Positions 6,361 to 47,688 of a stretch of DNA of 64,000 nt are shown here, piece after piece. The notes under the pieces were generated by a model. The model did no database searches and was not told the DNA's origin. It worked only from the letters and a program-made list of their open reading frames with translations. The stretch is from Spirochaetaceae bacterium (GTDB taxonomy: Bacteria; Spirochaetota; Spirochaetia; SZUA-6; Bin103). The position numbers and the translations under genes are program-made. The stretch lies in NCBI GenBank assembly GCA_028821475.1, contig JAPPGB010000096.1:1-64000 (forward strand), in the 5' to 3' direction. Within the stretch, counting starts at the first letter, position 1. Every line of letters begins with the position of its first letter.

Positions 6361-6618
6361 TACCGTACCGTACTGACTCTATCGTCTCCGAGGTGCAACG
6401 TGCAATGGAGCCGCCACGGGCGGCACGGTCGCTCCGCGAAACGGTAGACGATGGTCGGTCGGTCGCGTCGGTCGCGTCCGCGTGCGCTTGACACCTCGGG
6501 GCGAGCGAGCGACGATGAGCAAGTCAAGGATTGAACGGATGCGGATCATGCGTCATCACGACCCACGGCCCAGTAACCGGACGGAAGTGACGCAGCCGAT
6601 AACCCCCCCCCCCCGCGG
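6361..6618. other. Intergenic region with short tandem GGTCG/GTCGCG units and a 12-C tract
   Basis: No gene is evident. It holds overlapping short repeats around 6450-6483 and a homopolymer of twelve C at 6603-6614, immediately before the second leader repeat. The corresponding tract before the first leader has seven C. A TTGACA hexamer occurs near 6487 without a convincing partner -10 box. Confidence 0.5.
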
Positions 6619-8999: not shown

Positions 9000-9048
9000 G
9001 CCAACGGGGTCCGCCGGCGTTTTCGCGCTGGTTCTGCCTGCAGAGAAT

Positions 9049-9079
9049 GGCGCCGGGAGCCCTTGAGCTTCCCGGCGCC
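9049..9079 (+). promoter_or_regulatory. Intercistronic hairpin between binding protein 2 and dppB
   Basis: A strong inverted repeat: left arm GGCGCCGGGAGC (9049-9060), six-base loop, right arm GCTTCCCGGCGCC (9067-9079). It has no U tail. It lies between the binding protein and dppB, as in cassettes 1 and 3. A TTG codon at 9063 that could start dppB falls inside the hairpin, which favours the downstream ATG at 9096. Confidence 0.6.
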
Positions 9080-9095
9080 CTTCTACCATGAAGAT

Positions 9096-10097: not shown

Positions 10098-10457
10098 GTT
10101 CTTTACGAGGCTGGTCAAGGAGAAGCCGCTGAGCATAGTCGCCGGGGGGTCATCCTGCTGTTGCTACTGGTGGCGATCTTTGCCGATGTGCTGGCGCCTT
10201 ACCCGCATGATGAAGTCAACATCGTGGACCGGATGCAGGCGCCCTCCAACCGCTACCTGATGGGCACCGACCAGTTGGGGCGCGACCTGCTGAGCCGCCT
10301 CGTGTTCGGCGCCCGGATTTCGCTGACCGTCGGTCTGGCGGCGACCACCGTCAACGTCGTGGTGGCGGTGCTCGGCGACGCGGTGCGCGACCTGCTCGAC
10401 CCGCGGCTGCGCGGCGGTGGCGGCCGCCTCGACGCCGATCGCGCTGCGCGGGTGTAA
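10090..10457 (+). pseudogene. Broken dppC of cassette 2 (frameshift plus 507-nt internal deletion)
   Basis: An ATG overlapping the dppB stop starts MTEFFTRLVKEKPLSIVAG, then the frame is lost: compared with dppC at 3444, one base is missing in the GCCGGGGGG run near 10141-10150. The original frame resumes as LLVAIFADVLAPYPHDEVN and continues through the LGTDQLGRDLL-type block to VVVAVL. There it jumps directly to GDAVRDLLDPRLRG, skipping 169 codons that include most membrane helices and the ATPase-docking loop. The product cannot be a working permease. Cassette 2 must use another DppC, possibly that of cassette 1, or be non-functional. Confidence 0.88.
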
Positions 10458-10555
10458 AGCAGCCAGCGGTTTGCGAGCACAAGTCCCGGGCTGAGGCCTA
10501 CGTTCAGAGATACCTTTGTAACCGGGCGACCTCGGCAAGATGCCGGCGCGGCCGG

Positions 10556-11746
10556 TCAGCGTGCGAGTACGGCCGGGGCCAGGTCGCCGATCGAGGAGCC
10601 GAGGTCGTCGTCGTCCTGGTTCGGGGCGGCGGCGTCGAATTGGCCCGGGTTGGCGGTGGGCGGCAGCGGCGTGTCGTACTGGTAGCCGGGCTCGGTCTGC
10701 TGCCGCTTCCATGTGGTGCGCATCTCCCGGAACGCCGCGAACGCGTTCTTCGCCACCGGCAGGTCGAACTCGATCGCCTTGCGCAGCTTGCGCAGGTTGT
10801 AGCACGGCACGCCGGCGTACATGTGGTGTTCCAGGTGCCAGTTCATGCGCCAGTACATGAACGATGAGACCGGGTCGAGCCGGATGCTGCGCGTGCACTT
10901 GCGGAAGTCGGCCACGTTGTCGCGCAGGCCGCAGTGCATCGGCAGGAACACGAACAAACGCCACCAGTTGGCGAGGAACCGCGACAGCGTGATGAACACC
11001 GGCAGCAGCCAGAGCTGAAACACGATGGCGACCGCGAGCACCGCGGCGTGGAACAGCAGGATCTTGCGCGCCCAGCGCACCGACTTGATCCGTTCCTCGG
11101 GATGCGCCTGGTACAGCGCCGCCATCCACTCGTGGGCGTCCGGCGCCAGCGGTTCGGTGTCGCCGGCGGCGTCCTTGGCCGGCGGCTTGCCGAGCGCGGT
11201 GTTGATGGTGTCCCGGACCCGTGGAATCAGCCCGTCGCAACCCGGCCCGCCGGTCAGGTTGACGCAGAACAACTGGACGATGAACAGGACGCGCACCGCC
11301 GCCGACTGCGGCAGCACCACCTCGCGGTCGCCGTCAGGGTGCAGCGTGTAGCGATGATGGTAGGTGTGGCTGAGTGCGTAGTCGTCGGGGTTGAAGAAGG
11401 TGATCAGCGAGAACAGGCGCAGGAAGAACCGGTTCAGCCCCTTGGTGCGGAACACGGTGCCGTGATCGAGCTCGTGCGACGCCGCCCCCAGGAAGCAGGA
11501 GAAGGTGCCGTACGCGAACAGCGATACCGCGAACAGCGCCCACTGCCGCTGGGCGAAGAAATAGTAGGTCAGCAGGGCGGTGCCGGCCAGGTAGCCGATC
11601 ACCCCGAGCGCCTGCCACCAGCCCTGCAGGTCGCTACGCCGCATGAGCTGCCGCAGCAGCCCCGGATCGATCGGGCTCCGATACCACTTGACGCGCAGCG
11701 TACGGCGCACGTCGGCCAGGGGAGGACGCGTAATGCTCACAACCAC
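10556..11746 (-). CDS. Fatty acid desaturase family membrane protein
   Basis: A 396-residue integral-membrane di-iron protein of the FA_desaturase family. The three histidine clusters expected for the diiron site are present: HELDH at 91-95, HTYHH at 127-131 and HLEHH at 304-308. A further histidine lies at 271 in PMHCGLRD. Hydrophobic segments lie near 45-90, 105-120, 150-165 and 230-270. Such enzymes insert double bonds or hydroxyl groups in acyl chains or hydroxylate related lipids; the substrate cannot be told from sequence. The region between the second and third clusters is extended by an Ala/Pro-rich stretch near 185-215. It converges with the broken dppC and is followed on the same strand by nothing obviously related. 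Confidence 0.85.
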   Translation of the reverse strand: MVVSITRPPLADVRRTLRVKWYRSPIDPGLLRQLMRRSDLQGWWQALGVIGYLAGTALLTYYFFAQRQWALFAVSLFAYGTFSCFLGAASHELDHGTVFRTKGLNRFFLRLFSLITFFNPDDYALSHTYHHRYTLHPDGDREVVLPQSAAVRVLFIVQLFCVNLTGGPGCDGLIPRVRDTINTALGKPPAKDAAGDTEPLAPDAHEWMAALYQAHPEERIKSVRWARKILLFHAAVLAVAIVFQLWLLPVFITLSRFLANWWRLFVFLPMHCGLRDNVADFRKCTRSIRLDPVSSFMYWRMNWHLEHHMYAGVPCYNLRKLRKAIEFDLPVAKNAFAAFREMRTTWKRQQTEPGYQYDTPLPPTANPGQFDAAAPNQDDDDLGSSIGDLAPAVLAR

Positions 11747-11798
11747 CAGCGTTTATAGCTCCCGCGCCCGGCTGTCAAGTCCCCGCGCGGCGGTACGG

Positions 11799-13550
11799 TC
11801 AGGTGGGACGCTGGATCGTCAGCAGGTGGCCGGGCTCGATGCCGGGGACGGTGGAGGTGGCGCCGTCGGGCCAGGTTACGGTGAGCGTGAGCGGTCCGGA
11901 ACCGGCGGGGAGCCCGAAGTGCACGCGGGCCGGCTCGCTCGACAGGTAGCCGCCGGCCACGCGCACCTCGCGCAGGTAGGACGCGGACGCGGTGGCGAGC
12001 TGCAGCCGGGCGCCGATCGCGCGCGGGTTGGGCGAGCCGGGCCAGCGCAGGTCGATCTCGACGCTGGCGCCGTGCGCGCCGGCGGTGGCGCCGCACACCT
12101 GGTTCTCGAACAGGATCGACGGGGCGGCGACGTTGTTCACCACCAGGTCGAGGTCGCCGTCCAGGTCGAGGTCGGCCATCGCCATGCCGCGCCCGCCCTC
12201 GGTGGCGGCCAGCCCCCACTCCGGGACCGGCACGAAGACCCCCGCGCCGGTGTTGCGCAGCGCCTGGTTCTCTTCCACCAGCTCGGCGCCGGCCAGGTGC
12301 TCGAACACCGTGCCGACCATGCCGTTGACGGCGTACACGTCGAGCAGGCCGTCGTGGTCCAGGTCGCCGAACTGCACCGACCAGGTCCAGCCGGTGGCGG
12401 CCAGCCCGCGCTCCGGCGCCCGGTTGACGTAGCTGCCGTCCGCGGTACGCACCTGCAGCACGTTGGCCACGATCTGCACCTCGTTCCCCTCCTCCGGGCG
12501 CTGGCCGCTCCAGAGCGGCGCCCACGCCGCGTCCACGTCGGCGCCCTCGCGGTAGGGCTGCATGTCCGCCGCCAGCAGCTCGACCGTGCCGTCGTTGTCG
12601 ACGTCGCCCTCGGCGTATCCCATGGTGTTGAAGGTGGTGTGTACGAACGGCTGCCCCAGGCGCCAGCCGAACTCGGTATTCAGGTAAACGTAGTCGGGGG
12701 TGTCGTAGTCGTTGCCGACCAGGATGTCGCGGCGGCCGTCGTGGTCCAGGTCGAGCAGCGCGATCGCCAGCGCCTCCGCCTGGCGCGCCAGCGGAAACGA
12801 GCGCAGCCGCGCGCCGGTGTTCTCGTAGTAGAACACGCCGCCGTCGAGCGGCGTCTTGGTGTCGGTGCCGGCGGCGAAGTTGAGGTACACCTCCCGCATG
12901 CGCAGCTTCTCCAGCTCGGCGTCGTACGACGCCCCCACCAGGTCCAGGTCGAGGTCGCCGTCCAGGTCGGCCCAGGCCATTGCGTAGATCGGGAACCAGC
13001 TGATGAAGTCCGCGTCGTCGGGCACCGCCGCGAACGAGCGCTCGCCCACCCCGCGCCACCACTGCGGGCGCCGGCCGGAGCGGGTCACCACCAGGTCCAT
13101 GGCGCCGTCGCCGTCCAGGTCGAGCGCGTTGATCGCGCGCGTGGCCTCCGCCGGCAGCGCGACGCGCTCGAAGCGCAGCCCGCCGCGGTTCCACAGCAGC
13201 GTGACCGGGGCGCGCAACCCGGCGAGGGCGATGTCGATCAGGCCGTCGCCGTCCAGGTCGGCGAGCGCCACGCCGGCGCCGTTGCCGTCGAACATCAGCG
13301 GCGGGTCGCCGTCCATAAGCGTGGCGTGGGGCAGCTCGTGGCGCACGAACCGTCCGCTGCACGCCGGCGCGGCCGCCCACGGCGTGTGCGCAACCTCCAC
13401 CGCCACCACCTCGGCGCCGGCCGCCGCCGCGGCAAGCAGGCCGGCCACTGCCACGGCTGCGCCGACACCGCCCGGCGCGGCCAGGGTCCATGCGACGCGG
13501 CCGAGGGGGCGATGAGGACCGCTGCAGCAAGTCACAACACGTGGAATCAT
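11799..13550 (-). CDS. Secreted FG-GAP/VCBS-repeat protein with ASPIC/UnbV domain
   Basis: A 583-residue predicted exported protein. An N-terminal hydrophobic stretch (about 15-45) ending in Ala-Ala-Gly-Ala acts as a signal or anchor. Several propeller-type repeats follow, each with a calcium-binding-like D-x-D-G-D motif (ADLDGDGLIDI, LDGDGAMDLV, LDHDGRRDI, LDLDGDLDL and others). The C-terminal 90 residues form an ASPIC/UnbV (CRTAC-type) domain with IGARLQLATA, a GYLSSEP turn, VHFGLP and VTWPDG. Such proteins are extracellular or surface adhesion and scaffold candidates of unknown exact role. ATG 13550 is preferred because it places the hydrophobic segment near the N-terminus; the open frame reaches 13724. 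The same C-terminal domain closes the fusion protein at 17971-21465. Confidence 0.85.
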   Translation of the reverse strand: MIPRVVTCCSGPHRPLGRVAWTLAAPGGVGAAVAVAGLLAAAAAGAEVVAVEVAHTPWAAAPACSGRFVRHELPHATLMDGDPPLMFDGNGAGVALADLDGDGLIDIALAGLRAPVTLLWNRGGLRFERVALPAEATRAINALDLDGDGAMDLVVTRSGRRPQWWRGVGERSFAAVPDDADFISWFPIYAMAWADLDGDLDLDLVGASYDAELEKLRMREVYLNFAAGTDTKTPLDGGVFYYENTGARLRSFPLARQAEALAIALLDLDHDGRRDILVGNDYDTPDYVYLNTEFGWRLGQPFVHTTFNTMGYAEGDVDNDGTVELLAADMQPYREGADVDAAWAPLWSGQRPEEGNEVQIVANVLQVRTADGSYVNRAPERGLAATGWTWSVQFGDLDHDGLLDVYAVNGMVGTVFEHLAGAELVEENQALRNTGAGVFVPVPEWGLAATEGGRGMAMADLDLDGDLDLVVNNVAAPSILFENQVCGATAGAHGASVEIDLRWPGSPNPRAIGARLQLATASASYLREVRVAGGYLSSEPARVHFGLPAGSGPLTLTVTWPDGATSTVPGIEPGHLLTIQRPT

Positions 13551-13967: not shown

Positions 13968-15752
13968 ATGACTATTCGATGGCTCGTAAAGGCCCTCGCG
14001 GTGTGCGCGGGGTTCGCCGTGATCACGACCGGTGCCTGGGCCGCCGGCGAGGGGGAAGAGGGAGCCGAAGCGATGCCCGAGAAGGAGATGGTCACCGACC
14101 CGAGCAGCGGCAAGCAATTCACCGCGCCGCAGTACGGCGGGACGATCACCATCGCACACTTTGCCCACACGTTGGCAGTGGACACCTACAGCGGGGGCCC
14201 CGCCGTCACCCACATTGCCGGCGTCGTCGAGAAGCTGGCGATGATGGACTGGGCGGTGGACCGCGACACCTGGGCACTCAACTGCTTCTGCGGTCCGATC
14301 GAGTACATGCGCGGCCAGCTTGCGGAGAGCTGGGAGCAAACCGATCCCGTCACCGTAACCGTCAAGTTGCGCCCCGACGTCTACTGGCAAGACAAGGAGC
14401 CGGTGAACGGGCGCCAGTTCGTGGCCGACGACGTGGTCTACAACTACACCCGCTACATCGGGCTCGGCGACGGCGATGCTAGCCCGTTTATCGATCGGCT
14501 CGGCAACATGGCGTGGGATTCGATCACCGCGCCGGACGATCACACGGTGGTGTTCAAGCTTCAGGAGCCGCACGCGTGGTTCCTGTATGACCTGTTGTGG
14601 CACGAGGTCACTGCGCTGTACGCGCCGGAGGTGATCGAGGCAGGCAACGTGACCGATTGGGAGGCTCTGGTGGGGACCGGCCCGTACATGCTGACCGATG
14701 TCCAGGAGGGCAGCAGCCTGGCCTGGGAGCGGAACCCGAACTACTGGGGTCACGACGAGAAGTATCCGGAAAATCAGCTTCCCTACCCGGATGCGTTGAA
14801 GGCGCTCGTAATACCGGAGCCGGGGACCCGTCTGGCGGCATTCCGTACCGGCCAGATCGACCTCGGGTTCTCCCAGCACGGTGCGTCGATCCGTACCCCG
14901 GGCGACCTGGAGGGGCTGCTGCGCACCAATCCCGACATGCAGTACGGGATCTACAACTTCCGCAGTGACTACCTGTTCATGATCAACGTCGAGAACCCGC
15001 CCCTGGACGACATTCGGGTGCGGCGGGCGCTGCAGCTCGCGATCAACCTGGATGAGATCAACGACGCGCTCTACGACGGGCAGGGCAACGCCACGCCACG
15101 CTCGATGAGTGCGCACGTCTGGGTGCCCCCGTACGAGGAGTGGCCGGAAGAGTTGCAGTTCTACTTCAAGTACAACCCCGAGCACGCGGAGGAGCTGTTG
15201 GACGAGGCGGGTCTGCCGCGCGGCGCCGATGGCACCCGGGTGACGATCGGCGCACTGATCGGCGGCGTCGGCACGCTCGACGCCACCTACTGGGAGCTGG
15301 TGCAGGGCTATTACGCGGACATCGGCGTCGAACTGGAGCTGCAGCCCGAGGACGGCTCGATCTACGCCGACCGGATGGCGGCGGTCCAATACGACCTCGG
15401 CATGTCGGAAGGAACCAGCCAGATGATCGAGGAGCACCTGGTGGGCCGGTTCTACGGCGACGGCACCAACCAATGGCAACCCAATACCGTCGATCCCGAG
15501 TACAACGCGCTGATCGAGGAGATGCGCGCGGCCACCACGCTCGACAAGTACGCCGAGCTTTGGGGCGTGGCGAACCTGTTCCTGTTGGAGAAGCAGTGGA
15601 TCATCACCGCGGTGGAACCGCCGCAGTGGAACATCGTCCAGCCGTGGATCCAGGGCTGGAACGGCGAGAACATGCTCGGCCGCCACCAGTACGTCGAGCT
15701 CTACGGGCGCCTCTGGATCGACCAGGATCTCAAGGATCACTACTTGAACTAG
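13968..15752 (+). CDS. ABC transporter substrate-binding protein, family 5 (peptide type), cassette 3
   Basis: A 594-residue SBP_bac_5 protein, clearly paralogous to the receptors of cassettes 1 and 2 but more diverged. It keeps the Ala-Ala-Gly-Glu-type end of the signal peptide, the KEMVTDPSSGKQFTAPQYGG block and the ending LWIDQDLKDHYLN. The middle contains LAESW, DDVVYNY, the GTGPYML segment and NPEHAEELLDEAGLPRG. No lipobox is present. A strong AAAGGAGG ribosome-binding site precedes the ATG, and intact dppB and dppC genes follow, so this is the one fully intact non-duplicated peptide importer here. It has no linked ATPase. Confidence 0.92.
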   Translation: MTIRWLVKALAVCAGFAVITTGAWAAGEGEEGAEAMPEKEMVTDPSSGKQFTAPQYGGTITIAHFAHTLAVDTYSGGPAVTHIAGVVEKLAMMDWAVDRDTWALNCFCGPIEYMRGQLAESWEQTDPVTVTVKLRPDVYWQDKEPVNGRQFVADDVVYNYTRYIGLGDGDASPFIDRLGNMAWDSITAPDDHTVVFKLQEPHAWFLYDLLWHEVTALYAPEVIEAGNVTDWEALVGTGPYMLTDVQEGSSLAWERNPNYWGHDEKYPENQLPYPDALKALVIPEPGTRLAAFRTGQIDLGFSQHGASIRTPGDLEGLLRTNPDMQYGIYNFRSDYLFMINVENPPLDDIRVRRALQLAINLDEINDALYDGQGNATPRSMSAHVWVPPYEEWPEELQFYFKYNPEHAEELLDEAGLPRGADGTRVTIGALIGGVGTLDATYWELVQGYYADIGVELELQPEDGSIYADRMAAVQYDLGMSEGTSQMIEEHLVGRFYGDGTNQWQPNTVDPEYNALIEEMRAATTLDKYAELWGVANLFLLEKQWIITAVEPPQWNIVQPWIQGWNGENMLGRHQYVELYGRLWIDQDLKDHYLN

Positions 15753-15760
15753 GCCAGGTC

Positions 15761-15805
15761 GAAGGCCGCGTTGCCCGCGGGGGTTCCTCGGGTGACGCGG
15801 CCTTC
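15761..15805 (+). promoter_or_regulatory. Intercistronic hairpin between binding protein 3 and dppB
   Basis: Perfect 11-base arms, GAAGGCCGCGT (15761-15771) and ACGCGGCCTTC (15795-15805), enclose a 23-base loop that can itself pair (CCCG with CGGG). There is no U-rich tail. The position matches the hairpins of cassettes 1 and 2, although the sequence differs. Confidence 0.6.
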
Positions 15806-15822
15806 AGGCGCGCCCGCCAGCC

Positions 15823-16791
15823 ATGACAGCATACCTGATACGGAGGATTTTCCTCCTTGTCCCCACGGTGTTCCTGGTAACCGTGCTGGTGTTCCTGATG
15901 GTGCGGTTCATCCCGGGGGACGTGATCGACATGATGGCGGAGCGGGCGATGCGTACCGGCGGCGGATCCTTCATGGTGGACCGCGAGGCACTCGAGAAGG
16001 CGCTGGGACTGGACAAGCCCGTGCACGAGCAGTACGCGGTCTGGATCGGGAACCTTGTCTTCAAGGGTACGTTCGGGATGCCGTTGACCGGCGGCAGCTA
16101 CCTGATCGAGGAACGGATCGCGCGCCGGCTGCCGATTACCGCCGAGCTGGGCATCCTGGCGCTGCTGATACAGTTGGCCATCGCGCTGCCGGTTGGCGTG
16201 TACTCGGCGGTGCGCCAGGACACCGGCGGCGACTACGCCGCCCGCACCGCCGCCGTGATCGGGCTGGCCGCGCCCAATTTCTGGCTGGCGATGCTGATCA
16301 TCATCTTTCCCTCGATCTGGTTCCAGTGGCAGCCCCCGATCGAGCACGTGTCGTTCGGCGCCGATCCGCTCGGCAACCTGTACTTCTTCCTGTTTCCGGC
16401 GCTGATTCTGGGCACGGCCGGGTCGGCCGGCCTGATGCGGCTGACCCGCACCATGATGCTGGAGGTGTTGCGCCAGGATTACATCCGCACCGCGTGGGCG
16501 AAGGGACTCAGGGAACGGGTGGTGGTGGTGCGGCACGCGATCAAGAACGCGTTCATTCCGGTCGCCACTTCGATCGGGATGGACCTGCCGCGGCTGGTCG
16601 GAGGGGCGGTGATTATCGAGAACGTGTTCAATATTCCGGGCTTGGGGCGCCTCGCCGTCGACGCGCTGCAGTTGCGCGACTATCCGACCATATCCGCGTT
16701 GAACCTGGTTGCCGCGCTCACGATTACCGGGGTCAACCTGATGGTGGACCTGGTCTATCCCTATCTCGACCCCCGCATCCGGTACCGGTAG
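15823..16791 (+). CDS. Peptide-type ABC transporter permease DppB, cassette 3
   Basis: A 322-residue DppB/OppB-family permease. Landmarks are the basic MTAYLIRRIFLL start, the MVRFIPGDVIDMM block, IALPVGVYSAVRQDTGGD, and the EAA-type loop DYIRTAWAKGLRER followed by HAIKNAFIP. The end, LDPRIRYR, corresponds to LDPRVRYD in the paralogues. Residues near 240 (SIGMDLPRLVGGAVIIEN) are typical of the family. It starts 17 bases after the intercistronic hairpin and ends eight bases before dppC, so the two permeases are co-transcribed. Confidence 0.93.
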   Translation: MTAYLIRRIFLLVPTVFLVTVLVFLMVRFIPGDVIDMMAERAMRTGGGSFMVDREALEKALGLDKPVHEQYAVWIGNLVFKGTFGMPLTGGSYLIEERIARRLPITAELGILALLIQLAIALPVGVYSAVRQDTGGDYAARTAAVIGLAAPNFWLAMLIIIFPSIWFQWQPPIEHVSFGADPLGNLYFFLFPALILGTAGSAGLMRLTRTMMLEVLRQDYIRTAWAKGLRERVVVVRHAIKNAFIPVATSIGMDLPRLVGGAVIIENVFNIPGLGRLAVDALQLRDYPTISALNLVAALTITGVNLMVDLVYPYLDPRIRYR

Positions 16792-16799
16792 GGCCTGCG

Positions 16800-17708
16800 A
16801 TGGCGACGTCAAGCGAGTCAGCCGGCCACAACGTCTCGAACGTGCCCGCTCGCCGGCACCCGGCCGTGCTGTTTCTGCGCAAGCTGGCCAGGAAGCGTCT
16901 CGGGATGGGCGGCGCCGTGGTCGTGCTGCTGCTGATCCTGGTTGCCGTGTTCGCGGAGCAGATCGCACCGTACCACTTCAACGAACGCAACATCGGCAAC
17001 CGCCTGCAGGCGCCGTCGGCAGAGCACTGGCTCGGCACCGACCAGATCGGGCGCGACGTGCTCAGCCGCCTGATCGTGGGCGCGCGGCTGTCGCTGCTGG
17101 TCGGGTTGGGCGCGACGCTGCTGGGGGTGGTCACGTCGCTGTTCCTGGGAACCCTGTCGGGGTTCGTCGGCGGCAAGCTGGACATGACCATTCAGCGCTT
17201 CGTGGACGCGGCGATGACCATTCCCGACCTGTTGGTGCTGCTGACCATGCTGACGATCTTCGGGCGCGGCCTGCTGCAGTTCATCCTGGTGATCGGTATC
17301 TGGGGCGCCATCGGCGGGTCGCGTACCATCCGCAGCGCCGTCATCGCGATCAAGGAGAACGCCTACTTCGAGTCCGCGCGGGCGGCGGGGTCGCCGGTTT
17401 CGCGCACCCTGTTGCGGCACGTGGTTCCGAACCTGATGCCGCTGGTCATCATCGGCTTTACGGGCGGCATCGGCTACAACATCCTTACCGCCGCCGGGCT
17501 CAGCTTTCTCGGCTTCGGCCTGGACATCGGCACCCCGGACTGGGGCAGCATGCTGAGCCGTGAGGGCCGCGCGTACATGGAGTCGGCGTGGTGGCTGGCG
17601 ATGTGGCCCGGCCTGCTGCTGACCATCGCCATCTTCAGCTTCAACATGTTCGGCGACGCGCTGCGCGACCTGCTCGACCCCCGCCTGCGCGGCGCCAACG
17701 TGCGCTAA
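16800..17708 (+). CDS. Peptide-type ABC transporter permease DppC, cassette 3
   Basis: A 302-residue DppC/OppC-family permease. The first 25 residues are polar (MATSSESAGHNVSNVPARR) and cytoplasmic. The first helix follows, then FNERNIGNRLQAPS and LGTDQIGRDVLSRLIVGAR, then the EAA-type loop ENAYFESARAAGSPVSRT near 198-215. The end is FGDALRDLLDPRLRGANVR. ATG 16800 lies eight bases after the dppB stop with little Shine-Dalgarno sequence, suggesting translation coupled to dppB. A palindromic element lies nine bases past the stop and may terminate the operon. Confidence 0.92.
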   Translation: MATSSESAGHNVSNVPARRHPAVLFLRKLARKRLGMGGAVVVLLLILVAVFAEQIAPYHFNERNIGNRLQAPSAEHWLGTDQIGRDVLSRLIVGARLSLLVGLGATLLGVVTSLFLGTLSGFVGGKLDMTIQRFVDAAMTIPDLLVLLTMLTIFGRGLLQFILVIGIWGAIGGSRTIRSAVIAIKENAYFESARAAGSPVSRTLLRHVVPNLMPLVIIGFTGGIGYNILTAAGLSFLGFGLDIGTPDWGSMLSREGRAYMESAWWLAMWPGLLLTIAIFSFNMFGDALRDLLDPRLRGANVR

Positions 17709-17716
17709 CAGGCAGT

Positions 17717-17762
17717 GGTGGAACTCCGGCTGCATTCGAGCGGCGCGACGCCGGGTTCCACC
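17717..17762. repeat. Palindromic element after cassette 3, related to a dispersed repeat
   Basis: GGTGGAAC (17717-17724) pairs with GTTCCACC (17754-17761), with CCGGC/GCCGG next to it. This makes a hairpin that could act as a factor-independent terminator without a clear U tail. Its reverse complement resembles the two ends of the longer repeats at 18797-18955 and 47689-47847: GGTGGAACCCGGCGTCG at one end and a GAATGCAGCCGGAGT-like block at the other. It looks like a shortened copy. Confidence 0.55.
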
Positions 17763-17970
17763 CTGGGTTGCTAGCATGGTGTCCCGCACGTTCTTACGCA
17801 CGCGCCGCGCTCCGGGGGACGGTCGCGGCCCCGACGTGGTGGCCGCAGGACTGCGCCGCCGTGCTCCCGCTGCGGCCAACCCCGCGCGCGGCGACGCGCC
17901 GGCGGCGGTGGCTCCACTGCAGCCGCCCGTTTCGCTTGTAGAGCGGTCGCTGGGACACCAAGCTGGCACG

Positions 17971-20900
17971 ATGGTGGCGCCGGCGCTGCGGAGCGCGAGA
18001 TTCGCCCTGGGCACGGTGACCGGCAAGCGGCGCGTCATCGGAGTCGTACTGCTGCTCGCGCTGCTGATTCCGTTCTTTGCGCTCAATCGGCTGCCCAAGC
18101 TGGACACCGTGCGCGCCGACCTGGCGCTGGCGCTGGCGCCCACCGCGGAGTGCTTTCAGGGGTTCTGCATCGAGCGCGAGCCCGAGTCCACCTTCCTGCA
18201 GCGCTGGTGGCGGTTCTCGCTCACCTACCTGCAACTGGTCGCCGCCGGCATGGTGTTCGCGTTCCTGGCGGGTGGCATCGCCGAGACCTTCCTGATGCCG
18301 GCGCCGACAACGGGTGCCGGCCCGCCGCGGCGGCTGCTCGGCGGGCGCTGGGGGCGCATCCTGAAGGGGCTCGGCATGGGCCCGGTGGTGAACCTGTGCT
18401 CGGCGTGCGTCGTTCCCGTGTCGAGCGCCATGCACCGGCGCGGGCTCGGCATCGAGGGGTCGCTGGCGCTCGTGCACGGGTCGGCGACCCTCAACGTGCC
18501 CTCCCTGCTGATGATCGCGGTGGTGTTCTCGCCGCTGCTCGGCGCCAGCCGGCTCGCGCTCGGGCTGACGGCGGCATTCCTGCTCGGCCCGCTGGTACTG
18601 TGGGTGGCGCGCACCGCTGCCGCGCGACCGGCCGCCTGGGCTGCCGCCGCCGAGGAGGCGGCGTGCGAGCTACCGGGGTGGGATCCCGGCGGCGCCGCGG
18701 GGGGACCGGAGCGGCGGGACGGTGGCCAGCACACCCTCGCGCGCGGGCGTCCGGAGACCGTCGCCGGCGGTGCCGCATCCGGGTCCGGCCGCCCGTGGTG
18801 GAACCCGGCGTCGCACCGAGAGCGGCGAGGCGCCCGCCTGGCAGGGCGCGACGAAACGAGCAGTTCGGGCATGGGTGAGCGAGCCGCAACGCAGCCAGCC
18901 GGGAGGATGCATCGCCGCGCGAATGGAGCCGGAGTTTCGCCACCGGCCGCTGGCGCGCGACCGGACGCCTGGGCAGCCGCGCCCAAGGATGCGGCGTGTG
19001 AGCTGCCGGGATGGGGGCCGCACGGCGCCCCCGGTGGACCAGAGCGGCAGGAGGCCGGGCAGCACACCTTCGCGAGCGGGCGCCTCGAGATCGTCACTGG
19101 CGGCATCGCCTCCGGGTGTGCCCAAACCGTCACCGGCGGCGCGGCTGGCGGCCCAACCCGGGCCGCGCCGGGAGCGTTCCGCAATCCGGCAGACTCCTGG
19201 GCCGCGGTCGCCGTGGCCGGCGTGCGGCAGTGGGCGCGGGCAACCGGGCGCCTGGTCGTGCAGATGGCGCCGCTGATGGTGGTGGCCGGCTTCGCCAGCG
19301 GGGCGGCAATACAGCTCCTGCAGCCGGAGACGGTCGACGCCTACCTGGGCGACAGCCTCTCGGGGGTGCTGGCGGCGGCTACCCTGGGCGTGCTGATCAA
19401 CGTGCCGTTGCTGTTCGAGATTCCGCTGGTCGCGCTGCTCCTGGTGCTGGGTGCGGGCGCGGCGCCGAGCGCGGCCCTGCTGTTCGCCGCCGCGGCCGGG
19501 GGGCCGATCACCTTCTGGGGGCTGGCGCGGACGGTCGGGCGGCGCGGCATCGCGGCCTACGCCGCCGGCACCTGGGCGATCGCCGTGCTGGGCGGGCTGC
19601 TGGTGCTGGCGGTGAGCACGCAGTTCCCGGCCCTGGCGCCGTTGCGGGCGGCGCTGGTGCCGGAGCCGCCGCCCGCCGTGAAGCAGACCCCGGCGGGGCC
19701 GACCCACGCCCGACCGGCGGACGCAGTGCCGTTGGCGTTCCGCGACGTCAGCTCCGCCGCCGGGGTAACCGGCGACGTCTACCACTCCATCGCGACCCAC
19801 AGCCTGGGCGTGAACTGGATCGACGTGAACCGGGACGGCTGGCCCGACCTGTTCGCGGTGCGCGGCGATGCCGGGCTCGCGCCGCGCCTGTTTCTGAACC
19901 GCGGCGACGGCAGCTTCGAGCCCCGCCACGACCTACTGCCCGCGTTGCCCGGCGTGGAGATGTCGGGCTCGGTGTTCGCCGACTACGACAACGACGGCGA
20001 CGACGACATCTACGTGTACACCGACCACCCGGAGTGGAGCCTGCAGGGATACAACGCGCCCGACGGGCCGCCCAACCTGCTGCTCAAGAATCTATTCTCC
20101 GAGCACGGCGGCCGCCTGCCCGCCGCCGGGCCGCTGTTCGCGGAGGTGGCCGCGGCCGCCGGAGTGGACGACCTGGCGCCGGCCCCGTTCGGGGAGCTGC
20201 CGGCGTACCGCACCAAGGCGGCGAGCTGGCTCGACTACGACCGCGACGGCTGCGTCGACCTGTACGTCGGCCACATCGTGATCAACAACGAGGCCGACCC
20301 GGCCAACCGCGACCGCCTGTTTCACAACGAGTGCGACGGCACCTTCACCGATGCCACCGACCACGCGCTGCCCGCGGCCGCCGACTATCGCGCCGCGCTG
20401 GTGGTGTACGGCGCCCACCTCGACGACGACCTGTGGCCCGACCTGTACGTCGTGAACGTGGCCGGCAACGGTGCCAACCGGGCGCTGCACACCGACCAGG
20501 TCTACCGCAACCGGGACGGCCGCTTCGTGCAGGTGTTCGACGACTGGCCGTGGATCGGCGACGACGCGCAGGCGGGCATGGGCATCGCCGCCGCCGACGT
20601 CGACCTGAACGGCACCTGGGACCTGTACATCACCGACCTGCTGGACGCCACCACGCTGGAGCGTCCGCCGGGCGGCAACGTGCTGTACCTGGGCGACGCG
20701 TCGGGCGCGTGGGCCGACAACAAGGCGGCCGGCGCCGGCGTGGCGGGCACCGACTCGTGGGGCATCAACTTCCTGGACGCCGACCACGACGGCTGGGAGG
20801 ACCTCTACGTCGCCACCATGGTGCACCTCAACGACGAGTTGCTGTACGCGAACAATCGCAACGGCACCTTCACCAACGTGGCCGCGCAAGCCGGCTACGA

Positions 20901-21465
20901 CGGCTACGACACTGGCGCCAGCCGCGGCAGCGCGGTGGCCGACTACGACGGCGACGGCGACCTCGACATCGCCGTGGTCAACCAGCATGAGCCGCACTGC
21001 GCGGAGGGTCCTCCCCCGTCCTGCTCGCTGCAACTGCTGCGCAACGACACCGCGACCGCGGGCAACTGGCTCAAGCTGCGCCTGACCGGCACCGCCAGCA
21101 ACCGCAGCGCAATCGGCGCCCTGGTGCGGGTACAGGCAGGGCCCCTCCGGCTGATGCGGCAGGTCACCGGCGGCTCGAGCGGCCACTCCCAGAACAGCCT
21201 GGTAGTGCACTTCGGCCTCGGCCGGGCGGAGGTGGTCGACCGGGTGGAGATCCTGTGGCCGTCCGGGGCACGCACGAACTGGAGCGCGCAGCCGTCCGAC
21301 ACGCTGATCGACGTGGTCGAGGGCCGGGCGTGCACGGACGGGAAGCGCGCCGAGTGCGTGGAAGCGCCGCCCGCGCCGACGACTGCGGCGACGGCGGCGA
21401 TGGCCGGCGCAGAGCTTTCGAGCGCCCCGGCCGCCGGCGGAGAGACCGGCGCCGGCGCCCCGTAA
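17971..21465 (+). CDS. Fusion of DUF318/ArsP-type permease and VCBS/ASPIC-UnbV propeller
   Basis: An exceptionally long protein, about 1164 residues from ATG 17971 (1229 from ATG 17776; the extra 65 are low-complexity Arg/Ala/Pro). Residues about 15-215 are a multi-helix membrane region with GMGPVVNLCSACVVPVSSAM followed by a glycine-rich helix pair, resembling one half of PF03773 (SO_0444/ArsP-type) permeases with their conserved CxxC-like turn. A polar linker of about 190 residues built from repeats follows. Residues about 410-570 are the second membrane half (MAPLMVVAGFASGAAIQL, then VLINVPLLFEIPLVALLL). From about 585 the protein is soluble, with VCBS/FG-GAP repeats (DVNRDGWPDLF, DYDNDGDDDIYV, DYDRDGCVDLY, DYDGDGDLDIAV) and an ASPIC/UnbV ending (IGALVRVQAG, VHFGLG, ILWPSG). 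Such permeases export metal or arsenic species. Here a surface propeller would be tethered to the transporter. The function is inferred only from the domains. Confidence 0.72.
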   Translation: MVAPALRSARFALGTVTGKRRVIGVVLLLALLIPFFALNRLPKLDTVRADLALALAPTAECFQGFCIEREPESTFLQRWWRFSLTYLQLVAAGMVFAFLAGGIAETFLMPAPTTGAGPPRRLLGGRWGRILKGLGMGPVVNLCSACVVPVSSAMHRRGLGIEGSLALVHGSATLNVPSLLMIAVVFSPLLGASRLALGLTAAFLLGPLVLWVARTAAARPAAWAAAAEEAACELPGWDPGGAAGGPERRDGGQHTLARGRPETVAGGAASGSGRPWWNPASHRERRGARLAGRDETSSSGMGERAATQPAGRMHRRANGAGVSPPAAGARPDAWAAAPKDAACELPGWGPHGAPGGPERQEAGQHTFASGRLEIVTGGIASGCAQTVTGGAAGGPTRAAPGAFRNPADSWAAVAVAGVRQWARATGRLVVQMAPLMVVAGFASGAAIQLLQPETVDAYLGDSLSGVLAAATLGVLINVPLLFEIPLVALLLVLGAGAAPSAALLFAAAAGGPITFWGLARTVGRRGIAAYAAGTWAIAVLGGLLVLAVSTQFPALAPLRAALVPEPPPAVKQTPAGPTHARPADAVPLAFRDVSSAAGVTGDVYHSIATHSLGVNWIDVNRDGWPDLFAVRGDAGLAPRLFLNRGDGSFEPRHDLLPALPGVEMSGSVFADYDNDGDDDIYVYTDHPEWSLQGYNAPDGPPNLLLKNLFSEHGGRLPAAGPLFAEVAAAAGVDDLAPAPFGELPAYRTKAASWLDYDRDGCVDLYVGHIVINNEADPANRDRLFHNECDGTFTDATDHALPAAADYRAALVVYGAHLDDDLWPDLYVVNVAGNGANRALHTDQVYRNRDGRFVQVFDDWPWIGDDAQAGMGIAAADVDLNGTWDLYITDLLDATTLERPPGGNVLYLGDASGAWADNKAAGAGVAGTDSWGINFLDADHDGWEDLYVATMVHLNDELLYANNRNGTFTNVAAQAGYDGYDTGASRGSAVADYDGDGDLDIAVVNQHEPHCAEGPPPSCSLQLLRNDTATAGNWLKLRLTGTASNRSAIGALVRVQAGPLRLMRQVTGGSSGHSQNSLVVHFGLGRAEVVDRVEILWPSGARTNWSAQPSDTLIDVVEGRACTDGKRAECVEAPPAPTTAATAAMAGAELSSAPAAGGETGAGAP
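18622..19116 (+). repeat. In-frame repeat block: 162-nt direct repeats flanking a dispersed element
   Basis: Two direct repeats of 162 bases, 18622-18783 and 18955-19116, lie exactly 333 bases apart and encode related 54-residue segments (each with a DAACELPGW- or EAACELPGW-like core and a GGPER...QHT stretch). Between them, 18797-18955 is a copy of a roughly 160-base element also found at 47689-47847. The whole block keeps the reading frame of the permease fusion and makes up most of its linker. Confidence 0.65.
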
Positions 21466-21547: not shown

Positions 21548-22813
21548 CTAAAATGTGAGGTTGACCGGCGGGCAGGAGGGATCGGTCACCGCGCACTGGC
21601 CGAGCTGGCCGTGGTCGTTGCTGCCCCAGCCCCACAGGGTGCCGTCGGTCTTCAGCGCCACGGTGCCGTGGCCGGCGGCCGCGACCGCGTGCCAGTCGTC
21701 GTCCCAGGTCCAGTTCCACAGGTCCCGGAACCGCTTCACCAGCTCCGGCTTGAGCTGGCGCCGGACCGTCCACCGCTGCCCGAGCTGGCCGCGGTTGTTC
21801 AGCCCCCACGCCCACAGGGTGCCGTCGATGCGCAGCGCCACGGTGTGCGCCTCGCCGGCGGCCACCGCCCGCCAGTCGGAACCGGACGGCACCCGTACCG
21901 GTTCGCGGCGATCGGTGGTGCTGCCGTCGCCGAGCTGGCCGGTGCCGTTGGCACCCCAGCCCCACAGCGTGCCGTCGCTGCGCACGGCGACGGTGTGGGC
22001 CTCGCCGGCCGCGACCGCGCTCCAGTCCGCCCGCGTCCCGACCTGCACCGGTTCGGGTCGGTCGGTGGTGCTGCCGTCGCCGAGTTGACCGCTCCAGTTG
22101 GCGCCCCAGGCCCACAGCGTGCCGTCGGCGCGCAGGGCAACGGTGTGGGCCTCGCCGGCGGCCACCGCCTGCCAACCGGCGTGCGTGCCCACCCGTACCG
22201 GGCTCGACCGGTTCTCCCACCCGCCGTCGCCGAGCTGGCCGAGGTCGTTGCGCCCCCACGTCCACAGCGTGCCGTCACGGCGCACGGCGACGGAGTGCCC
22301 GAAGCCGGCGGCAGCGGCGCGCCACCGGCCGCCGCCGGCCACCTGCACCGGGCTCGGTCGGTCGGTGGTGCTGCCGTCGCCGAGCTGGCCGGCACCGTTG
22401 GAGCCCCACGCCCACAGCGTGCCGTTGCGCCGCACCGCGACGGTGTGCACCGCCCCGGCGGCCACAGTTCGCCACCTGCTTCCCGCGCCCACCTGCACCG
22501 GACTGGCGCGGTCGGTAGTGGAACCGTCGCCGAGCTGGCCGGACGAGTTCCGGCCCCAGGCCCAAAGCGCGCCGTCGCTCTTCAGCACGAAGGTGTGCGA
22601 GGGCGCGGTGGCAACCGCGCTCACCGTCGTCGCGCAGGCACGTCTGAGGTCGAACGCGCACCGCACCTGCGAGCAGCCCGCCAGCGTGACGAGTCCCGGA
22701 AGGGTCGCCACCGCCACGAGCATCAAGCGCCCGGTTCCGGACCGGACGCGCCGGGACCGGGCGGCCAGTCGCAGCGAGCCGCGGCCGGCACTGCCCACGG
22801 TGGTGCTGGACAT
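21548..22813 (-). CDS. RCC1-repeat lipoprotein
   Basis: A 421-residue exported protein. A basic N-region and hydrophobic stretch lead to a lipobox LAGC with the cysteine at 47, so it should be a lipid-anchored envelope protein. The rest is seven RCC1-type (PF00415/PF13540) repeats of about 50 residues, each with a V-A-L/V-R-x-D-G-T-L-W-x-W-G-x-N-x-x-G-Q-L-G-D core, forming a predicted seven-bladed beta-propeller. The final repeat has a longer insert (KRFRDLWNWTWDDD). The DNA of neighbouring repeats is also alike, pointing to recent unit duplication. Bacterial RCC1 proteins probably mediate protein or glycan contacts; no specific partner is evident. Confidence 0.87.
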   Translation of the reverse strand: MSSTTVGSAGRGSLRLAARSRRVRSGTGRLMLVAVATLPGLVTLAGCSQVRCAFDLRRACATTVSAVATAPSHTFVLKSDGALWAWGRNSSGQLGDGSTTDRASPVQVGAGSRWRTVAAGAVHTVAVRRNGTLWAWGSNGAGQLGDGSTTDRPSPVQVAGGGRWRAAAAGFGHSVAVRRDGTLWTWGRNDLGQLGDGGWENRSSPVRVGTHAGWQAVAAGEAHTVALRADGTLWAWGANWSGQLGDGSTTDRPEPVQVGTRADWSAVAAGEAHTVAVRSDGTLWGWGANGTGQLGDGSTTDRREPVRVPSGSDWRAVAAGEAHTVALRIDGTLWAWGLNNRGQLGQRWTVRRQLKPELVKRFRDLWNWTWDDDWHAVAAAGHGTVALKTDGTLWGWGSNDHGQLGQCAVTDPSCPPVNLTF

Positions 22814-23259
22814 CCGATACGGCCTACCCCTTCATGCGCCGCAAGTCAAGACGCCCCGAATGCGGATGGATGCGACTTCAACGGCTCACGTTCCTGCGAC
22901 CGTTCATCATCCTCGCCATCAAGACCATCATCTGGCAGGGTCTGCTGCCGATGATCATCGTCTCTCTGGCCCGAACAACATGCGGGTCGTGCGCCGGGTG
23001 GCGCCCGCCATCAGGGAAAGTCCGTACATGGAGCCGCGCGCGCTGCCGACTGCTATACGTTGCGTGTGCGACGCCCCGCGCGGCCTCCTCGACCCCAACC
23101 TGCGAGGCTCCGTCCGCTTCCCACCGGAGCCATGCCTGCGTCCGAATACCAGCCCGGCGGTGCCGGCGGCCGGAGTACTGGAACACGATGCAAGTTCATA
23201 TTACCATGTCGCCGGGGGAGAGAGCTTTCCTCCATCGGTCAGAAACCGTTGCGACTGCG
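22814..23259. other. Intergenic region between RCC1 gene and ptuA
   Basis: The two flanking genes are divergent, so this 446-base gap must hold promoters for both, but no clear -35/-10 pair is visible. An open frame continuous with ptuA extends upstream to 22834 without recognisable protein similarity. Base composition shifts here: sequence to the right, up to about 25120, is less GC-rich than the flanks, as expected for an acquired module. Confidence 0.4.
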
Positions 23260-24510
23260 ATGATACTCAAGTCTCTTACGCTTACCAACTTCAGAGGTAT
23301 TCGAGATCTCCGGTTAGATTTCTCCGCCAAGGTCAACCTGCTGGCGGGCGTTAATGGAGCCGGCAAGACCGCGATTCTGGACTGTGCAGCCATCATGCTC
23401 TCTCGGCTGGTGGGCCGCATACGTTCGACCAGCGGCACAGGACGTTTCTTCTCTGAGTACGACATAACCAACGGTATGTCCGAGACGCGTTGCGCCGTAG
23501 AAACATTGTTCAAGGATCATCTCGTATCTTGGAGTGTGGCAAAGACCCGTAGAGGGCGCAAAAAGCAGTCGATTACCGGACTTGGGGAAGTAAAAACAGT
23601 CGTCGGTTTCATTCACACACGATTGGAGGAAGACGAATTATTTGAAGTTCCAATAGCAGTATACTAACCCACCAATCGTGCCGTTGTAGATATACCATTA
23701 CGTATCCGGAAGACGCATCCATTCGACCGACTGTCTGCTTATGACCAAGCACTGTCAGGGAAGTGGAGGAGCTTCCGTGTATTCTTTGAGTGGTTCAGAG
23801 ATCGTGAAGACTTGGAGAATGAACGTCGCCTGGAATCTGCGGACTTCCGTGATCGGGAATTACAGGCCGTACGGATCGCTGTCGAGCAGTTCATTCCCGG
23901 TTTCAGCGGCCTCCGGATCAGGAGGTCACCACTACGCATGGTCGTCGACAAGTGTGGTCAAGAGCTGAGGGTTGACCAGCTCTCCGACGGCGAAAAGTGC
24001 ACGCTTGCCATGGTGGGCGACTTGGCACGCCGTATGGCGATCGCCAACCCCACGCTTCAGGACTCTCTTGTCGGCAAGGGCGTCGTATTGATCGACGAAG
24101 TCGACCTTCATCTTCATCCCGGTTGGCAGCGGCACGTCGTTTCCGCACTGGAGGAGACGTTCCCGAACTGCCAATTCCTGGTTTCGACACACTCGCCGCA
24201 GATTATCAGCCACGTGGCACCGGAGCGCATCTGGATCCTGGATCGAACCAAGTCCGGCGTCAGCGCCAGCCGGCCTGACGCTTCGTTCGGTCAGATGGCG
24301 GGGCGCATCCTTGAAGACGTCATGGACGTGCCTGAGCGTCCTCAAGAGATCAAGGAGCGCTTGAGCGATCTGTTTCTGGCGATACAAAGGGACGAGTTGC
24401 CGGCCGCAAAGCAGCTGGTGTCGGATCTGAGAAGCACGATAGGAGAGGATCCCGATCTGGTTAGGGCTCGGATGCATATTCGGAGAAAGGAGGCTCTGAG
24501 GGGCCTGTAG
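23260..24510 (+). pseudogene. ptuA: Septu-type ATPase PtuA, interrupted by one in-frame TAA
   Basis: A 417-codon frame encodes an AAA/SMC-like ATPase of the Septu PtuA type, but codon 136 is TAA (23665-23667). Before the stop are FRGIRDLRLDF and the Walker A GVNGAGKT (30-37). After it the same frame continues with PTNRAVVDIPLRIRKTHPFD, the signature-like LSDGEKCTLAMVGDLARR, Walker B VVLIDEVDLHLHPGWQRHV and the H-loop FLVSTHSPQI. Family members usually have Tyr-Tyr-Pro at the break, so a TAC or TAT codon turning into TAA would explain it. In intact systems PtuA assembles with the PtuB nuclease for anti-phage defence. The two halves here could at most be made separately; TTG 23812 could open the second half. 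Base composition is lower in GC than the surroundings, consistent with transfer. Confidence 0.82.
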
Positions 24511-24514
24511 CTTC

Positions 24515-25116
24515 ATGAAAAAGATCACCAAGGGTGCAGAGCCTCGCGAGTTCACGGCCTGGAAATCAGAGGACAAGATGGCGCATCGACCAAAGTGGAA
24601 TCGTTTGAGTTCGCCACTCAAGGTAGTTATTCACGAATCCTTGATGAGAGAGCAAGGTTCATTTGTTGCTATTGTGAGGGCCGCATCGCGGTGGATGACA
24701 GCCACGTGGAGCACTTTTACCCGAAAGAGGAGTATTCCAATCTTCAGCTCGATTATGGAAACCTGCTTTGCTCCTGTCTGCGAGAACGGTCATCCGGCGA
24801 GCCCGTTCACTGTGGCCACAGAAAGGGCAGTTGGTTCGACGAAAGAGCACTCATTTCGCCTCTGCAACAAGACTGTGAGACGAGATTCAGCTTCACCGCC
24901 AACGGTGAAATAGTCCCGCGTTCAATTTCTGACAAGGCGGCTGCCACGACAATCGACAGGTTGGCACTTGATCTGCCGAAGTTGAATGCACTGCGGGAAG
25001 CGGCGATAGACGCACTTCAAGACTTACCAGTATCTGATGTCAAGCGCGTACTCGTCCAAGGACTGGACGGCACGTTCGCGGAGTACTTTACGACCATCAA
25101 GGACGTGTTGTTGTAG
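24515..25116 (+). pseudogene. ptuB: Septu-type HNH nuclease PtuB (TIGR02646 type), one-base frameshift
   Basis: It starts four bases after ptuA with MKKITKGAEPREFTAWKSED, the characteristic opening of TIGR02646/PtuB proteins, and runs to HESLMREQG. The reading frame then shifts at about 24657/24658. The neighbouring frame continues with FICCYCEGRI, DDSHVEHFYPK (HNH-type histidines), NLLCSCLRE, HCGHRKGSWFD and a family-typical C-terminal half ending TTIKDVLL. One missing base after CAAGG would restore Gln-Gly-Phe-Ile-Cys-Cys-Tyr-Cys. With the stop in ptuA the pair appears doubly inactivated, unless the assembly is wrong. A GTG at 24595 could start a product lacking the conserved N-terminus. 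Confidence 0.8.
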
Positions 25117-25166: not shown

Positions 25167-26537
25167 TCACTTTGGCCACTGCAGCAATACCACTTCTTCG
25201 CGAAGTTGTTCGCCAGTGGCGGTCGACAGGCGAGTGCGGAACAGGTCGATGCCCTCCACCCGGTAGCCGAGCGACTGTGCTATGTCGCTGAGCAGGGTTC
25301 CGGTACGTATCATCACGCGGAGATAGGATGCCTGATCGCCCACGACATAAGCGAGCCTCGCACCGGGATTGAGGATGGTTCTCAACGCCGCAAAGTGCTT
25401 TGCCATCCCGCCGAAGTAGAGCTTGGTCACGCGCGCATACATGCGCTCGAACCCGGACGTCTTGCCCATCTCCAATCGGCGATGTTCTATCTTGTGCGCG
25501 ATTTCCTGGATGGCGCCGTGCGACGCTACCTCCAGGTCGTCTTCGTCGCCCTTGTAGACGCCACGCGTGTTGGAGCGGATAAGGTCCTTCTTGAGCTGTC
25601 GCAAGCCACACATGTCGCCGATCAGCCCGAGGATCACCGACTCCAGCCGCGTCGTTCTCGTATAGTCTTTCTCGTTCGGGTAAGGTGGGGAAGTAATCAC
25701 GGCGTCCACCGAGCGTGGGCGCAGTATCCGATCGACTCGTCGGGCGTCTCCCTGGTGAATGCATGCCGAGACCGTCGCACGGTCTCGCAATTGCGAGAGG
25801 TCGTCGATCATTGTCCGCATGTGGCCGAGCCACGAATCCACGACCGGTGCGTCTTCCTTGAGCTTGCCGACTCCCACCTCGGGACCAAACTTCAGGTTGC
25901 CGATATCTCGCACCAGGGCATGTGCGAGTGCGAGCCGGCCGTAGCGCGGTAATGGCGATGCACCGCCGGTATCGATGGCGTCGAGCAGGACCAGTGTCTT
26001 GTGCAGTGGCAGGGGACTGATCGAGTCCTTCAACAACAGCTTGTTCTGCTCCGGAGTCAGACCTCGTAACGGCGCGCGGGTCCCGTTCCCGTTCCGGGCG
26101 CCGAACAAAGGAAGGTCGTTCCAGTCAGAGTAACCATCCCGGGCAATAGCGGCGCGTGCTCGTTCGGCCACTGCTGCTGCGTAGTCAGACAACGCGTCAG
26201 GGTCGGCTGACCAGTCCAACTTCACGGAGCTGGCGAACTGTGCCATCGGGTTCGACTCGATGCCTACGCTCGCGATGCCTCGCTTCTTGCACTCTACCAG
26301 GGTGGTGCCGGTGCCGGCGAACGGATCGAGCACGGTACCTCCGGTACGAATGTCAAACCGGCCGATATAGTCCTGAACGAGGTGCGGCGGAAACGACAGC
26401 ACGAACCGGTACCACTCATGGACGGATCGATCCTGCGGCAGCACGTTGTTGACCCGGCTCCGCGCGCGGCTGTCAGTGTTCGGGCGCGTGGACGCTGCTT
26501 CCGGCATTACGTGGTCGCGGTCTCCCTCACTGCTCAC
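25167..26537 (-). CDS. Site-specific DNA methyltransferase (amino-methylating type)
   Basis: A 456-residue SAM-dependent DNA methylase. Motif I, DPFAGTGTT, lies at 71-79 and the catalytic motif IV, TSPPY, at 282-286 (followed by PNEKDYTRTTR). This order and the SPPY tetrad fit the N4-cytosine/N6-adenine methylases. The insert of about 200 residues between the motifs may carry target recognition. The N-terminal 40 residues are polar. It converges on the Septu-like genes with a 50-base gap. No restriction endonuclease gene adjoins it, so it may be an orphan methylase or part of a defence cluster. The recognition site cannot be told. Confidence 0.87.
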   Translation of the reverse strand: MSSEGDRDHVMPEAASTRPNTDSRARSRVNNVLPQDRSVHEWYRFVLSFPPHLVQDYIGRFDIRTGGTVLDPFAGTGTTLVECKKRGIASVGIESNPMAQFASSVKLDWSADPDALSDYAAAVAERARAAIARDGYSDWNDLPLFGARNGNGTRAPLRGLTPEQNKLLLKDSISPLPLHKTLVLLDAIDTGGASPLPRYGRLALAHALVRDIGNLKFGPEVGVGKLKEDAPVVDSWLGHMRTMIDDLSQLRDRATVSACIHQGDARRVDRILRPRSVDAVITSPPYPNEKDYTRTTRLESVILGLIGDMCGLRQLKKDLIRSNTRGVYKGDEDDLEVASHGAIQEIAHKIEHRRLEMGKTSGFERMYARVTKLYFGGMAKHFAALRTILNPGARLAYVVGDQASYLRVMIRTGTLLSDIAQSLGYRVEGIDLFRTRLSTATGEQLREEVVLLQWPK

Positions 26538-47680: not shown

Positions 47681-47688
47681 CGGCCGGC

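Follow-up and report, generated by a model that had tools for sequence, protein, structure and literature searches.

A single-frame fusion of a divergent ArsP_1-family permease with an FG-GAP/ASPIC propeller in a Spirochaetaceae genome

The ArsP proteins (TC 2.A.119), which belong to the ArsP_1 (PF03773) permeases, are exporters of organoarsenicals. The C(S/T)C motif is present in all ArsP homologues surveyed (PMC4435449), and ArsP is built on a 4+4 plan, its halves being connected by a hydrophilic linker that varies in size (PMC7176098). The DxDxDG-type motif, found in propellers among other protein folds, binds calcium in many of them (PMC3123361). The gene described here joins a divergent PF03773 permease to a propeller with repeats of this type. 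It was found in a stretch of 64,000 nucleotides of a Spirochaetaceae genome (assembly GCA_028821475.1, contig JAPPGB010000096.1, positions 1 to 64,000), which is referred to below as the window, and occupies positions 17971–21465 of the forward strand. The encoded fused permease-propeller protein has a length of 1,164 aa, with orthologues in G002 and G003 and homologues in Dehalococcoidia and in a metagenome-assembled genome (MAG) of Deltaproteobacteria.

The frame extends from 17971, or from an earlier in-frame ATG at 17776, to the stop codon at 21463–21465. Position 17971 is the preferred start, because the only usable one of the G002 orthologue (L048) is the matching methionine, located three codons past a stop. 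As was found by the Pfam search, the window protein matches ArsP_1 in two pieces (39–42.5 bits against a cut-off of 32.3), the better one at residues 133–210 and the C-terminal half at 19252–19611. FG-GAP_3 (PF13517; 112 bits, five stretches) and UnbV_ASPIC (PF07593; 63–69 bits, residues 1047–1111) are both above cut-off, and the single-repeat FG-GAP model PF01839 is below cut-off in this protein. An earlier sequence-only reading had described one uninterrupted frame leading from a permease containing GMGPVVNLCSACVVP through FG-GAP/VCBS repeats to an ASPIC/UnbV end, without a stop or frame change at the junction. The open frame and the Pfam matches confirm this description, GMGPVVNLCSACVVP is found in the window protein as stated, and no stop or shift is present across 19600–19800.

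All parts of the gene lie on the forward strand. The N-terminal half of the permease (17971–18615) comprises one extra N-terminal transmembrane (TM) segment and about four hydrophobic segments. It is followed by a low-complexity linker (18616–19185), the length of which varies among homologues, by the C-terminal half of the permease (19186–19635) and by the junction between the last TM segment and the propeller (19636–19770). The FG-GAP/VCBS propeller (19771–21090) contains seven copies of a 37-nt repeat and seven visible DxDxDG-type repeats, five of them intact, and the ASPIC/UnbV domain takes up 21109–21303. The two membrane blocks recognised in the sequence-only reading are present, but it missed the linker between them, which comprises about 190 residues (aa ~216–405) and is partly a dispersed repeat.

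The comparison of a 12-member profile of the family with eight canonical CSC-type PF03773 proteins by hhalign gave a probability of 99.4 (E 3e-21, 278 columns), and PF03773 was matched by all 12 representative members at E < 0.01. The full-length same-family homologue L049 reached 23.0 bits, below the cut-off of 32.3. The LCSAC motif (18394–18408), which the profile alignment places against the CSC motif, is invariant in 20 of 20 close homologues, and CSC is present in each of the 12 canonical PF03773 proteins inspected. A second cysteine motif, CFQGFC (18151–18168), lies in the loop that follows the first TM segment and is likewise invariant in all 20. In the second half, the pattern INVPLxFEIPLV is nearly invariant among these homologues; INVPLLFEIPLV (19396–19431) is the second-half counterpart of LCSACVVP. 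Judging by these profiles and motifs, the permease is classified as a divergent member of ArsP_1 (PF03773), belonging to a subfamily with a CxxC signature. The earlier label of a PF03773-like permease thus stands as to the family, since 12 of 12 members match, but is loose in that the CxC of ArsP is replaced by CxxC; identity with ArsP itself was rejected, as CSAC stands in place of C(S/T)C.

The nearest NCBI equivalogs are two efflux families, SaoE and the SO_0444 Cu/Zn transporter, with weak matches in 11 and 9 of the 12 members, respectively. The window protein scores 26.7–30.1 bits against a cut-off of 325 for the former and 17.9 against 300 for the latter, and is not a member of either. 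The SaoE literature yielded nothing relevant. At the thresholds used, no Pfam or NCBIfam match to DsbB or DsbD was obtained, and the search of the PDB with the permease profile gave no match.

The same fusion was found in related genomes. In a protein search of 40 relatives, G002, a member of the same genus, showed the same architecture with 89% and 87% identity over two aligned stretches, and G003, from the same family, showed two copies of it. A second copy exists in the genome under study (G000, contig C25, a frame of 1,002 aa). When named genomes were scanned with the permease alignment, five loci were found, with the propeller in the same frame at all five: two in Spirochaetia CATQHW01 and one each in Spirochaetaceae bin103, Deltaproteobacteria NP72 and a Dehalococcoidia chromosome. 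The CATQHW01 and bin103 loci are the G003 and G002 loci again and are not additional. In a sample of 393 Spirochaetota genomes, the fused type occurs only as the two copies of this genome, the other known spirochaete copies being those of G002 and G003 in the same family. Close homologues (E < 1e-110) are present in 11 of 393 genomes of the class Dehalococcoidia. In the class of the Deltaproteobacteria MAG, the fusion was found in one genome (NP72) of 52; this copy sits on a 9-kb contig, is 83–89% identical to the second G000 copy, and may result from a recent transfer or a binning error. The architecture is conserved in three lineages, one of them represented by a single contig.

The 20 close homologues collected include 18 fusions, the G736 sequence, which enters FG-GAP sequence before its contig ends, and the split version of G596. 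The propeller was recognised in some of them by Pfam and in the others by Dx[DN]xDG repeats and sequence; PF13517 and PF07593 are above cut-offs in the window protein, in three paralogues or orthologues and in the split G596 gene. A consistent two-gene arrangement, named in the sequence-only reading as evidence against the fusion, does not hold, as 19 of the 20 run into FG-GAP in one frame and only one is split. In G596, a permease gene (414–432 aa) is followed on the same strand by a propeller/ASPIC gene overlapping it by a few bases. The product of the latter starts with a typical signal anchor, made up of a lysine-rich stretch and one hydrophobic segment. This arrangement suggests that the permease and the propeller belong together even when unfused.

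Other loci carry paired copies. G698 (L115) has two fused genes side by side and divergent (5331–8528, −, and 8855–11911, +), with permeases 44% identical and differing propellers 31% identical. The tandem fused copies of G721 (L116; 5449–8700 and 8820–11996), adjoined by a cytochrome c gene, are without the LCSAC segment and keep CFQGFC (CLQGFC in one of them) and the propeller.

The ratio of nonsynonymous to synonymous substitution rates (dN/dS), calculated by the Nei–Gojobori method for the window gene and its G002 orthologue, is 0.17 for the N-terminal and 0.145 for the C-terminal half of the permease, and 0.12 for the propeller. It rises to 0.25 in the ASPIC domain, 0.47 in the linker and 0.55 at the junction, and reaches 1.4 in the last 46 aligned residues. 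Both functional halves are under purifying selection, and the linker, junction and tail are relaxed.

The propeller has a history distinct from that of the permease. The two G000 copies share 62% identity in their permeases and 31% in their propellers, and the corresponding values for G819 and G618 are 59% and 25%. The match of the window propeller to a haloperoxidase-like protein encoded in the same genome reaches 549 bits, and its match to the other permease-linked propeller 133 bits. For the second G000 propeller, apart from its NP72 counterpart, the closest sequences are ASPIC proteins of the same genome that are not linked to a permease (498 and 467 bits). The permease tree groups the spirochaete copies with NP72 (99/100), whereas their propellers fall into two distant groups. 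These comparisons show that the propeller was exchanged during evolution while the permease remained constant. The haloperoxidase-like protein (L051:5325-8633, on G000 contig C102 and cut by the contig end) joins a DUF6851/VCPO-like, vanadium haloperoxidase-type N-terminal part to a propeller. ASPIC/UnbV proteins are strongly expanded in this genome, with 20 loci, including one in the window at 11817–12020 (−), against none in 14 control genomes. Among solved structures, the propeller/ASPIC part matches only that of cartilage acidic protein 1 (CRTAC1; PDB 9etn, E 4e-16). From the DxDxDG-type repeats, the propeller is predicted to bind calcium.

The mean hydropathy of the 20 homologues reveals nine segments arranged as 1+4+4. 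With the positively charged N terminus inside, counting nine hydrophobic segments puts the C terminus outside; the same counting puts the linker outside, where re-entrant segments could alter its side. The propeller is predicted to lie outside the cytoplasmic membrane, because the split G596 propeller has its own signal anchor and the parity of TM segments agrees. The external propeller proposed in the sequence-only reading is therefore supported at the level of prediction.

On balance, we lean towards a fused inner-membrane exporter of a soft metal(loid), an organometal or a thiol-bound compound, provided with an external calcium-binding propeller for capture or docking. The membrane half would be a divergent ArsP_1 permease with about nine TM segments (1+4+4), in which the CSAC pair inside the membrane would handle the substrate and perhaps hand it to the CFQGFC loop outside. 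The seven-bladed FG-GAP propeller and the ASPIC domain would be held outside the membrane beside the exit, where they would serve for capture or docking, and this module would be exchangeable for other ASPIC propellers without a change of the permease. Efflux is proposed because of the PF03773 homology and because the nearest equivalogs are efflux proteins, and the substrate class is proposed because of the membrane CSAC pair. Export direction and substrate class thus draw on knowledge of the family, and the role of the propeller is suggested by the architecture.

The gene also has recurrent neighbours. In the window and in G002 it follows, on the same strand, genes of an Opp/Dpp-type cassette, which in the window consists of an SBP_bac_5 extracellular solute-binding protein as the first gene (13968–15752, +; PF00496, 219.7 bits), a DppB/OppB-type permease (15823–16791, +; PF00528, 121.9 bits) and a DppC/OppC-type permease (16790–17708, +, start approximate, within ORF 15771–17708; PF00528, 94.5 bits, and OppC_N). 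Opp/Dpp genes also adjoin one copy in G806, the loci of G596 and G427, the second G000 copy and, divergently, the G676 locus. Of the six cases, the second G000 copy is the least convincing: downstream of it lies a solute-binding fragment that has no Pfam match, and then a DppB-like frame. Adjacency at 6 of 16 loci against about 0.23 expected from the SBP_bac_5 counts corresponds to P of about 5e-8, a value obtained with a criterion set after the pattern was noticed, with one gene per kb assumed and with an assumed rate for five loci; it is a lead rather than proof.

Several observations weigh against an exporter with a capture propeller. The substrate is a guess, because the equivalog scores of the window protein are far below the cut-offs (about 30 or less against 300–325). 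No ars, mer or metal-resistance gene was recognised beside the loci examined, the neighbours of which were not exhaustively annotated. A directly adjoining Opp/Dpp gene is missing at 10 of 16 loci, and the adjacency statistic was framed post hoc. The G721 copies indicate that non-transport parts could have a role of their own and that the protein may in part serve something other than transport. AlphaFold2 with six sequences gave unusable models, with a mean confidence (pLDDT) of 48 for the whole fusion and 53 for the permease alone. A more specific version of the exporter proposal is only a tentative possibility: a permease core that stays constant and has two invariant Cys pairs would be refitted repeatedly with differing ASPIC propellers that set the ligand captured or the partner docked at the exit, and, together with an Opp/Dpp importer, would perform export and recapture.

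The two cysteine pairs could also be read as a disulfide or electron relay, in which the CSAC pair in the membrane and the external CFQGFC pair would move electrons across the membrane in the manner of DsbB or DsbD, onto periplasmic partners or propeller-bound substrates. The number of invariant Cys pairs is exactly two, of which one lies within the membrane and the other in a loop that is predicted to be external; a TlpA-like thioredoxin is encoded about 3 kb away in G819 (L108), and the cytochrome c gene lies beside the G721 copies. However, the homology to PF03773 covers the whole domain, with no DsbB/DsbD model matched, the G721 copies keep the CFQGFC loop without CSAC, and redox neighbours are rare across the loci, so that a relay seems unlikely.

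It is just as unlikely that the permease block is chiefly a membrane anchor displaying an adhesive or ligand-binding propeller on the cell. The 20 FG-GAP/ASPIC loci of this genome, the ASPIC proteins noted in sponge-associated Poribacteria (PMC3909097) and the G721 copies lacking the permease motif segment would fit a display function. Nevertheless, conservation in the family is highest in the membrane core, where purifying selection is strong, and a simple anchor does not need nine TM segments with invariant Cys and Glu.

The neighbouring cassette suggests that the fusion could be an accessory of Opp/Dpp transport, where the permease would export a small carrier, e.g. a metallophore or a thiol, and the SBP_bac_5 importer would retake the loaded form with the help of the propeller outside. 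Such an accessory role is considered improbable. The SBP_bac_5 family includes nickel- and metallophore-binding members, and in some of the adjoining loci the genes seem to form one operon. However, SBP_bac_5 proteins are extremely numerous, with at least 87 matches in G000 and 88 in G002, the ten loci without an adjoining gene do not fit, and a carrier-synthesis gene was not identified. The weakest explanation, an assembly or annotation artefact joining two genes, has a negligible chance despite the two-gene version in G596, being ruled out by the same single frame in independent assemblies of several lineages, including contigs of 1–2.7 Mb (G003, G428), and by the selection on both halves.

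The linker of the window gene contains a 161-bp-type palindromic interspersed repeat in frame (18788–18951, +), located between two copies of a 171-nt direct repeat (18614–18784 and 18947–19117, +) that are 79% identical. In the orthologous linker of G002, the palindromic repeat is absent and the flanking sequence occurs only once. The direct-repeat copies are 333 nt apart, which equals 111 codons, and therefore the element and the duplicate keep the frame. Five of the six frames of the 161-bp consensus are open, and the consensus folds as one long hairpin (−105 kcal/mol, z −9.1); several other copies inspected are also in long open frames. The repeat was matched 46 times in this genome, 10 times in G002 and not at all in 11 other relatives searched. 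The search of the region against Rfam gave no match. As revealed by blastn with the element consensus, a shortened inverted copy is present between the DppC gene and the fused gene (17709–17772, −). Another copy is found in the window at 47679–47837.

Directly downstream of the fused gene, on the opposite strand, an RCC1-like repeat protein (GxLWAWGxNxxGQLGDG) is encoded at 21548–22813 (−). Further on, a Septu-type defence pair (22834–25116) comprises a PtuA-like ATPase in two frames, with a break between 23667 and 23812, and then a PtuB-like HNH gene. The strand opposite to this pair carries a gene for a type II DNA methyltransferase (25167–26537).

PF03773 permeases are widespread and poorly understood, as are ASPIC propellers, and the conserved fusion ties them functionally. 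That propellers were replaced repeatedly while the permease stayed constant is evidence that their pairing is important and not a single lucky event. The fusion offers a testable handle on the role of ASPIC/UnbV propellers in bacteria, and the family represents, in uncultured lineages, a new subfamily of PF03773 permeases with a CxxC signature. As to the new architecture suggested in the sequence-only reading, the fusion is confirmed and conserved; its novelty is judged from open-access papers, in which no earlier description of a permease-propeller fusion was found.

Among known systems, the ArsP exporters share with the fused protein the homology of the membrane domain and the 4+4 plan with a variable linker. 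The fused protein differs from them in its CSAC, which replaces C(S/T)C, in the propeller, and in the CFQGFC loop that comes with an additional N-terminal TM segment; none of the ArsP passages found in the papers searched mentions a propeller-type domain. SaoE (NF040736) and the SO_0444 Cu/Zn efflux transporter (NF033936) are the best-matching NCBI efflux equivalogs of the family, but the window protein reaches about a tenth of their cut-offs or less and so lies outside both. The copy of the palindromic repeat at 18788 is similar to Rickettsia palindromic elements in being read through inside a protein. CRTAC1 has a similar propeller/ASPIC part but is a secreted protein of animals and lacks a membrane transporter. 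The propeller of the haloperoxidase-like protein of the same genome shares 62% identity with the window propeller and is joined to a DUF6851/VCPO-like N-terminal part where the window protein has a permease.

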